From Armatimonadetes bacterium 55-13 (GTDB taxonomy: Bacteria > Armatimonadota > Fimbriimonadia > Fimbriimonadales > Fimbriimonadaceae): 32,181 nt of DNA. Every line of letters begins with the position of its first letter. Position 1 is the stretch's first letter. This document shows positions 31,755 to 32,181 of this stretch, piece after piece. The position numbers and the translations under genes are program-made. The DNA lies in assembly GCA_001898035.1 (NCBI GenBank), contig MKRX01000011.1, positions 94,364 to 126,544 of the forward strand. The letters are read 5' to 3'. The notes beneath the pieces are model-generated. The model did not search any database. It saw only the letters and a program-made list of their open reading frames with translations, and was not told the origin of the DNA.

Positions 31755-31880
31755 ATCTTCAATTTACCGATGGGCACGATGCGTAGTGCCCCGCTCATCG
31801 GGCCAATTTGAACGAGTGGTTCAAGTTGGGTCCGTATTGCCCAACTTTGTAAATTTTGTGAGATGGCTCCTTTAAAGAGT

Positions 31881-32181
31881 AGGACCGTCGCCCACATCGC
31901 GCTCTGAAATCAATAGAGCGCGAACAAACACCGAGCGAAAAATGTAGGCGTCAGTCCCCCTGACGTGAGCGCAACCAACCCCAGAGCGCCCTCGCCAAAA
32001 CCAACGCGCGTACGACGATAGGACCGTCGCCTACATTGCGCTCGGTTTTCCATAACGTGTGAATAATCACCGAGCGAAATGTAGCCGTCAGTCCTCCTGA
32101 CCTGAGCGCGATCTGAAACAGAGCGCCCTGTTTGGCCATCGCGCGTACGACGGTAGGACCGTCGCCTACATTACACTCGGT
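31881..32181. repeat. Array of nested inverted repeats, period about 135-139 bp, cut by the window edge
   Basis: The arm AGGACCGTCGCCTACAT recurs at 31881 (one mismatch), 32020 and 32155. The complementary arm, starting ACCGAGCG, occurs at 31930 and 32069. Paired arms therefore bracket units 31930-32046 and 32069-32181. Inside each unit are smaller hairpins: GTCAG-TCCTC-CTGAC, AAACAG-AGCGCC-CTGTTT and CGACGG-TAGGA-CCGTCG are perfect in the second unit, and the outer pair GCGCGAT/ATCGCGC closes around the middle one. A perfect 9-bp pair TCGCGCTCT/AGAGCGCGA (31897-31923) links the first half-unit. The single strand could fold as a multi-branched form. No ORF is credible here. The array continues beyond 32181. 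The part from 31755 to 31880 shows nothing clear. Confidence 0.8.

Follow-up and report, generated by a model that had tools for sequence, protein, structure and literature searches.

A GTAG-REP/BIME family and its RAYT gene in Armatimonadetes bacterium 55-13

The tandem array of palindromes at the right-hand end of the window (the whole 32,181-nucleotide stretch analysed here, C11:94364-126544 in a genome of 4.53 Mb and 27 contigs) is very probably a BIME-2-type cluster of REPINs from a GTAG-REP family, i.e. non-autonomous mobile DNA, associated with a RAYT encoded on contig C25. The GTAG-REP/RAYT system is known mostly from Proteobacteria, and the elements described here are a new GTAG-REP/BIME family of this well-known kind, together with its RAYT. 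Among the readings offered in the earlier note on this DNA, the REP-like family and the non-autonomous mobile element, which here amount to the same thing, both held: GTAG-tagged inverted REPs were found in BIME arrays, with a RAYT gene between two of them.

The array at the window edge and its unit

Direct repeats were found at positions 31880-32181 with spacings of 139, 137 and 135 bp, in agreement with the arms ACCGAGCG..ATGTAG and CTACATT..CTCGGT that had been seen to alternate at 135-139 bp. Within the window, the array consists of a truncated unit remnant and two full units of 117 and 113 bp, at a period of ~135-139 bp. Its left border is the truncated inverted REP TAGGACCGTCGCCCACAT (31880-31897, + strand), a 3' remnant of an initial unit, which is followed by the 3' outer arm of this truncated unit and the linker to unit 1 (31898-31929, +). 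Unit 1, a REPIN/BIME module of 117 bp (31930-32046, +) with the outer stem ACCGAGCG..AATGTAG / CTACATTGCGCTCGGT, contains a REP (31944-31965, +; GTAG tag at 31944-31947 and hairpin CGTCAG-TCCCC-CTGACG at 31949-31965), a middle hairpin (GAGCGC / GCGCCC; 31967-31991, +) and an inverted REP (32013-32034, - strand), the latter composed of the hairpin CGACG..CGTCG (32013-32029) and CTAC, the complement of GTAG (32031-32034). A linker of 22 bp (32047-32068, +) leads to unit 2 (32069-32181, +; 113 bp), with its REP (GTAG tag 32081-32084, hairpin 32086-32102), middle hairpin (32104-32128) and inverted REP (hairpin 32148-32164, CTAC 32166-32169). The three inner hairpins previously described for each unit are present, the middle one being degenerate and weak in unit 1.

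The last base of unit 2 directly adjoins an assembly gap of 103 N, which forms the right edge of the window. The array does not stop there, and in full it extends from C11:126243 to about C11:127110, with three more units and one partial unit past the gap. The earlier impression of an array running off the right edge was correct in that the array continues, although the edge itself is the gap. The array sits between two leftward-read genes: on the left it lies upstream of the start of a gene for a BSP-family peptidase (PF04450; 31041-31754, - strand), while the right neighbour, judged from its translation, presumably encodes a tRNA nucleotidyltransferase/poly(A) polymerase-like protein.

The consensus of 58 units, ACCGAGCGaaATGTAGsCGTCAGTCCcCCTGACGTGAGCGCGTTCTGTTTCAGAGCGCtCTG...GCGCGTACGACGGTAGGACCGTCGsCTACATtGCGCTCkGT, contains, in this order, GTAG and a hairpin (CGTCAG/CTGACG), the middle hairpin (GAGCGC..TCTG/CAGA..GCGCTC) and an inverted hairpin (CGACGG/CCGTCG) with CTAC, all three hairpins being enclosed by one outer stem. 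Across these units, G15-T16-A17-G18 was nearly invariant before the hairpin at consensus positions 20-36, and it was mirrored by CTAC after the hairpin at 85-101. In the unit, a third hairpin lies between a REP and an inverted REP, which makes it a REPIN, and its tandem layout is of the BIME-2 type. Up to nine units follow one another head to tail in an array and recur about every 134 bp; the linkers measure about 22 bp, and the CTACAT-to-ATGTAG core distance is 38-43 bp, mostly 41 or 42.

Palindromic repeats that are regularly spaced and separated by such linkers are also what integron attC-type or CRISPR-type arrays would look like. These readings are nevertheless vanishingly improbable, since both array orientations occur on one contig in ordinary intergenic positions and the linkers of different units are related to one another and not unique; for CRISPR, moreover, the repeat of 113 bp is far above CRISPR repeat length. 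As a separate observation on array structure, about 442 bp appear to be duplicated within the array L040 (8477-9306), and some of the units were fusions of two copies, which suggests recombination between units.

Copies in the genome and the RAYT gene between two arrays

A covariance model of the unit, built from the 58 units, was run on the genome and gave at least 147 matches, with 150 candidates scored. Once both-strand hits to one palindrome had been merged, these corresponded to at least 134 distinct places, which provides the genome-wide copy count that the earlier note had proposed. In the genome regions examined, 151 non-overlapping hits, fragments included, formed 41 arrays of one to nine units, with a single orientation within 40 of them. 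None of the 41 arrays fell within an ORF of 100 aa or more, as judged by simple longest-ORF calling; 14 were located between unidirectional, nine between convergent and seven between divergent ORFs, the other 11 being at contig ends or undetermined. Numerous contigs start or finish within a unit, indicating that the assembly breaks there and that the copy number is probably underestimated. The same model, under the stricter filters applied there, yielded no match in any of 60 related genomes, which included two of the same genus; among the genomes searched, only this species carries the family. At least 134 genomic places and none in 60 relatives together exclude a chance origin of the array. 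When the two genomes of the same genus were compared in search of an empty site, neither such a site nor an insertion event came to light: there was no synteny at the window-edge locus within the stretches examined, in which the peptidase homologues (47-50% identity) were not adjacent to the other neighbour genes.

The hits were strongly concentrated on the 82 kb contig C25, where 64 of the 151 (42%) fall within 1.8% of the genome (binomial probability about 1e-69, an overstated value, as copies within one array are not independent). Clustering near the replication origin was also considered and was rejected, dnaA being located on C6, a contig without hits.

PF01797 gave seven above-cut-off matches in the genome. 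A protein of 181 aa encoded at C25:51939-52484 scored 87.1 bits against NF047646 (REP-associated tyrosine transposase; cut-off 80), and its sole PDB match was TnpA_REP (4ER8, E 1.7e-7). The HUH motif H67-V-H69, Y126 and N130 were invariant in eight homologues and were aligned with 4ER8. In E. coli TnpA_REP, an Asn follows the catalytic Tyr by about four residues (PMC6006769), and the spacing of Tyr126 and Asn130 matches this description. The gene is bracketed by inverted arrays of the unit, at 51325-51795 (+) and 52488-52906 (-), the second of which begins 4 bp past the RAYT stop codon. The RAYT gene and its flanking arrays are a REPtron, and the C25 RAYT has apparently spread the unit. The acting enzyme is here singled out by position only, because a paralogue with 54% identity on C26 has no such elements beside it.

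This paralogue, a second RAYT of the host (C26:203957-204472, -), has none of the units alongside; a pair of 117 bp direct repeats, 85% identical, was observed just downstream of it. A further RAYT gene of the host, at C26:88900, has another palindrome, GCCTCCACCGCAAGCGGCGGAGGC, on its flanks, which is a probable second REP family. Finally, an IS200-like transposase gene was observed at C13:64820 (54.2 bits against NF033573, cut-off 55), with repeated GACGCAACCCCNTTGGGGTTG hairpins upstream.

The elements could alternatively be MITEs, moved with target-site duplications by a DDE (cut-and-paste) transposase and not by a RAYT, a reading that we consider most unlikely. The long inverted repeats would fit it, as would an imperfect 18 bp direct repeat (15/18) that flanks the window-edge array, with GATGGCTCCTTTAAAGAG on the left (31862-31879, +) and GATGACTCCTAAAAAGAG just beyond the point where the array ends on the right (C11, about 127110). 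This repeat is the one candidate that the search for target-site duplications suggested in the earlier note turned up; array borders are eroded, and at the other arrays tested nothing approaching it in length and identity was seen outside element sequence. The GTAG-tagged hairpins and a RAYT gene bracketed by the same elements further argue against a MITE. The 18 bp repeat may be due to chance, or may be a remnant or a target duplication.

Pairing and strand composition

Both strands of the window-edge array fold far below shuffled sequences (z = -7.2 for + and -7.5 for -), and over the 58 units 92.6% of the cells of the full structure were paired. Such a strong fold on both strands, with pairing so well kept, would be expected of a structured intergenic RNA (riboswitch-like, or a tandem ncRNA) maintained by selection on RNA folding. 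High pairing is, however, expected anyway among recent copies of a palindrome, and covariation over the 58 units was not above that of shuffles (0.096 observed compared to a shuffled mean of 0.102). Similarly, cells changed on both sides were fewer than in shuffles (20 compared to 26.4). The differences between unit loops, previously taken as a hint of selection for structure, are accordingly not compensatory. The earlier note had named a single copy together with a lack of compensatory change as the outcome that would count against it; many copies were found, contradicting the first part, while the second part was borne out by the missing compensatory signal. The absence of the unit from the 60 relatives makes a cross-species comparison of structure impossible.

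The distribution of imperfect pairs was more informative. G.U pairs averaged 3.3 per copy in the copies rich in G/T and 0.5 in those rich in C/A, and A.C mismatches averaged 0.5 and 3.2, respectively. Whether a copy was of the G/T-rich or the C/A-rich class tracked the chromosome strand, regardless of array orientation, and in all 31 arrays tested the GC skew of the array had the same sign as that of the 5 kb on its flanks (r = 0.89). The skew sign shared with the flanks and the split between G.U and A.C make strand-biased composition, acting on non-coding DNA, the best explanation of the apparently kept pairing. This strand bias probably originates from replication. The local GC skew was also observed to be unusually strong, compared to the rest of C11, in the repeat-rich stretches (the last 12 kb of C11, the first 40 kb of C14, and C19).

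A functional RNA is, in light of these data, very unlikely. G.U pairs are common only in the G/T-rich copies, with A.C mismatches taking their place in the C/A-rich ones, both orientations of arrays with respect to the neighbouring genes are seen, and an Rfam search of the array gave no match at E values up to 1. The suggestion of an intergenic RNA element is consequently not supported, given covariation no higher than in shuffles, the strand-composition effect and the lack of an Rfam match.

Proposed mechanism and relation to known systems

For the REPIN clusters, we infer a scheme of recognition, cleavage, transposition and tandem-array formation in which the unit would be exposed as a single strand, as may happen on the lagging-strand template, whereupon the C25 RAYT/TnpA_REP would most likely recognise and cut its GTAG-tagged hairpins. 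Cut units would then be rejoined elsewhere, between genes, and tandem copies could arise if the module is re-inserted, recombines or is amplified. E. coli TnpA_REP has been shown in vitro to cut and rejoin single-stranded GTAG-tagged REPs, the in vivo spread of REPs being left unresolved (PMC8266576). RAYT genes are known to have inverted REPs or BIMEs on their flanks, and in Thauera the REPs are enriched near the rayt gene (Nunvar et al., PMC2817692), a tendency also displayed by the clustering of units on C25; tandem REPIN clusters likewise adjoin RAYTs (PMC3116915). A bolder and rather doubtful possibility is that the RAYT spreads this BIME mainly locally, near its own gene, which would give the strongly clustered distribution of copies, and that the three-hairpin module of 113 bp, and not the single REP pair, is what is amplified into tandem arrays, in a phylum without a described system.

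The arrays resemble the BIME-2 or tandem REPIN clusters of E. coli, Stenotrophomonas, Xanthomonas and Pseudomonas fluorescens SBW25 in their alternating inverted GTAG-tagged REPs, as well as in the head-to-tail arrangement of modules, the intergenic location, the many copies and the arrays beside a RAYT gene (PMC2817692, PMC3116915). In contrast to those clusters, they have a sequence of their own and an Armatimonadota host, and they differ from typical REPINs by a larger module (113-117 bp) with an extra conserved middle hairpin. The C25 locus is similarly comparable to the REPtron of E. coli (TnpA_REP, 4ER8; Quentin et al. 2018, PMC6006769) with respect to the HUH/Tyr/Asn residues, membership of NF047646 and the inverted REPs bracketing the gene, though the identity of the C25 RAYT to E. 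coli TnpA_REP is low. A 5' GTAG, a 6 bp stem, a small loop and pairs in opposite orientation are shared with the GTAG-REP families 1-24 as described in the accessible text of Di Nocera et al. (2013, PMC3733652), a likeness to these 24 families drawn by description and not sequence by sequence. That text lists GTAG repeats for Proteobacteria, Cyanobacteria, Chloroflexi and the PVC group, with Armatimonadota not among the groups it names (PMC3733652). Among the papers searched, none joined Armatimonadetes with repetitive extragenic palindromic sequences.

RAYT homologues were identified in three more genomes of the host's family (G006, G012 and G014). The RAYT gene of G006 has a distinct GTAG REP, GTAGCCGCATCCTTTAGGTTGCG, on its flanks, part of a 53 bp tandem array; this REP gave 33 matches in G006 (none with a reversed control) and none in G000 or in G012. 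It shares with the present unit the GTAG tag, the REP doublets and a tandem array flanking a homologous RAYT, but has a different hairpin sequence, a smaller module and only about 33 copies. G012 contains three RAYT genes with long inverted palindromes on both sides. The surroundings of the G006 and G012 genes indicate that RAYT/REP pairs are not the same from one genome of the family to the next. Of the named records, the nearest to the host was a Fimbriimonadaceae MAG, whose genome G061 contains a NuoG fragment with 79% identity over 356 aa to the NuoG of the window; this one protein fragment agrees with a place of the host in the Fimbriimonadaceae.

The results extend the GTAG-REP/RAYT system to Armatimonadota, where the phylum itself, the strong concentration of copies on the RAYT contig and the explanation of an apparent structural conservation by strand composition are the points of some interest. 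They also call for caution, as strand-biased composition, with G.U on one strand and A.C on the other, can mimic pairing kept by selection on RNA structure. Finally, RAYT/REP pairs that differ between the genomes of one family could be used for studying the coevolution of RAYTs and REPs.
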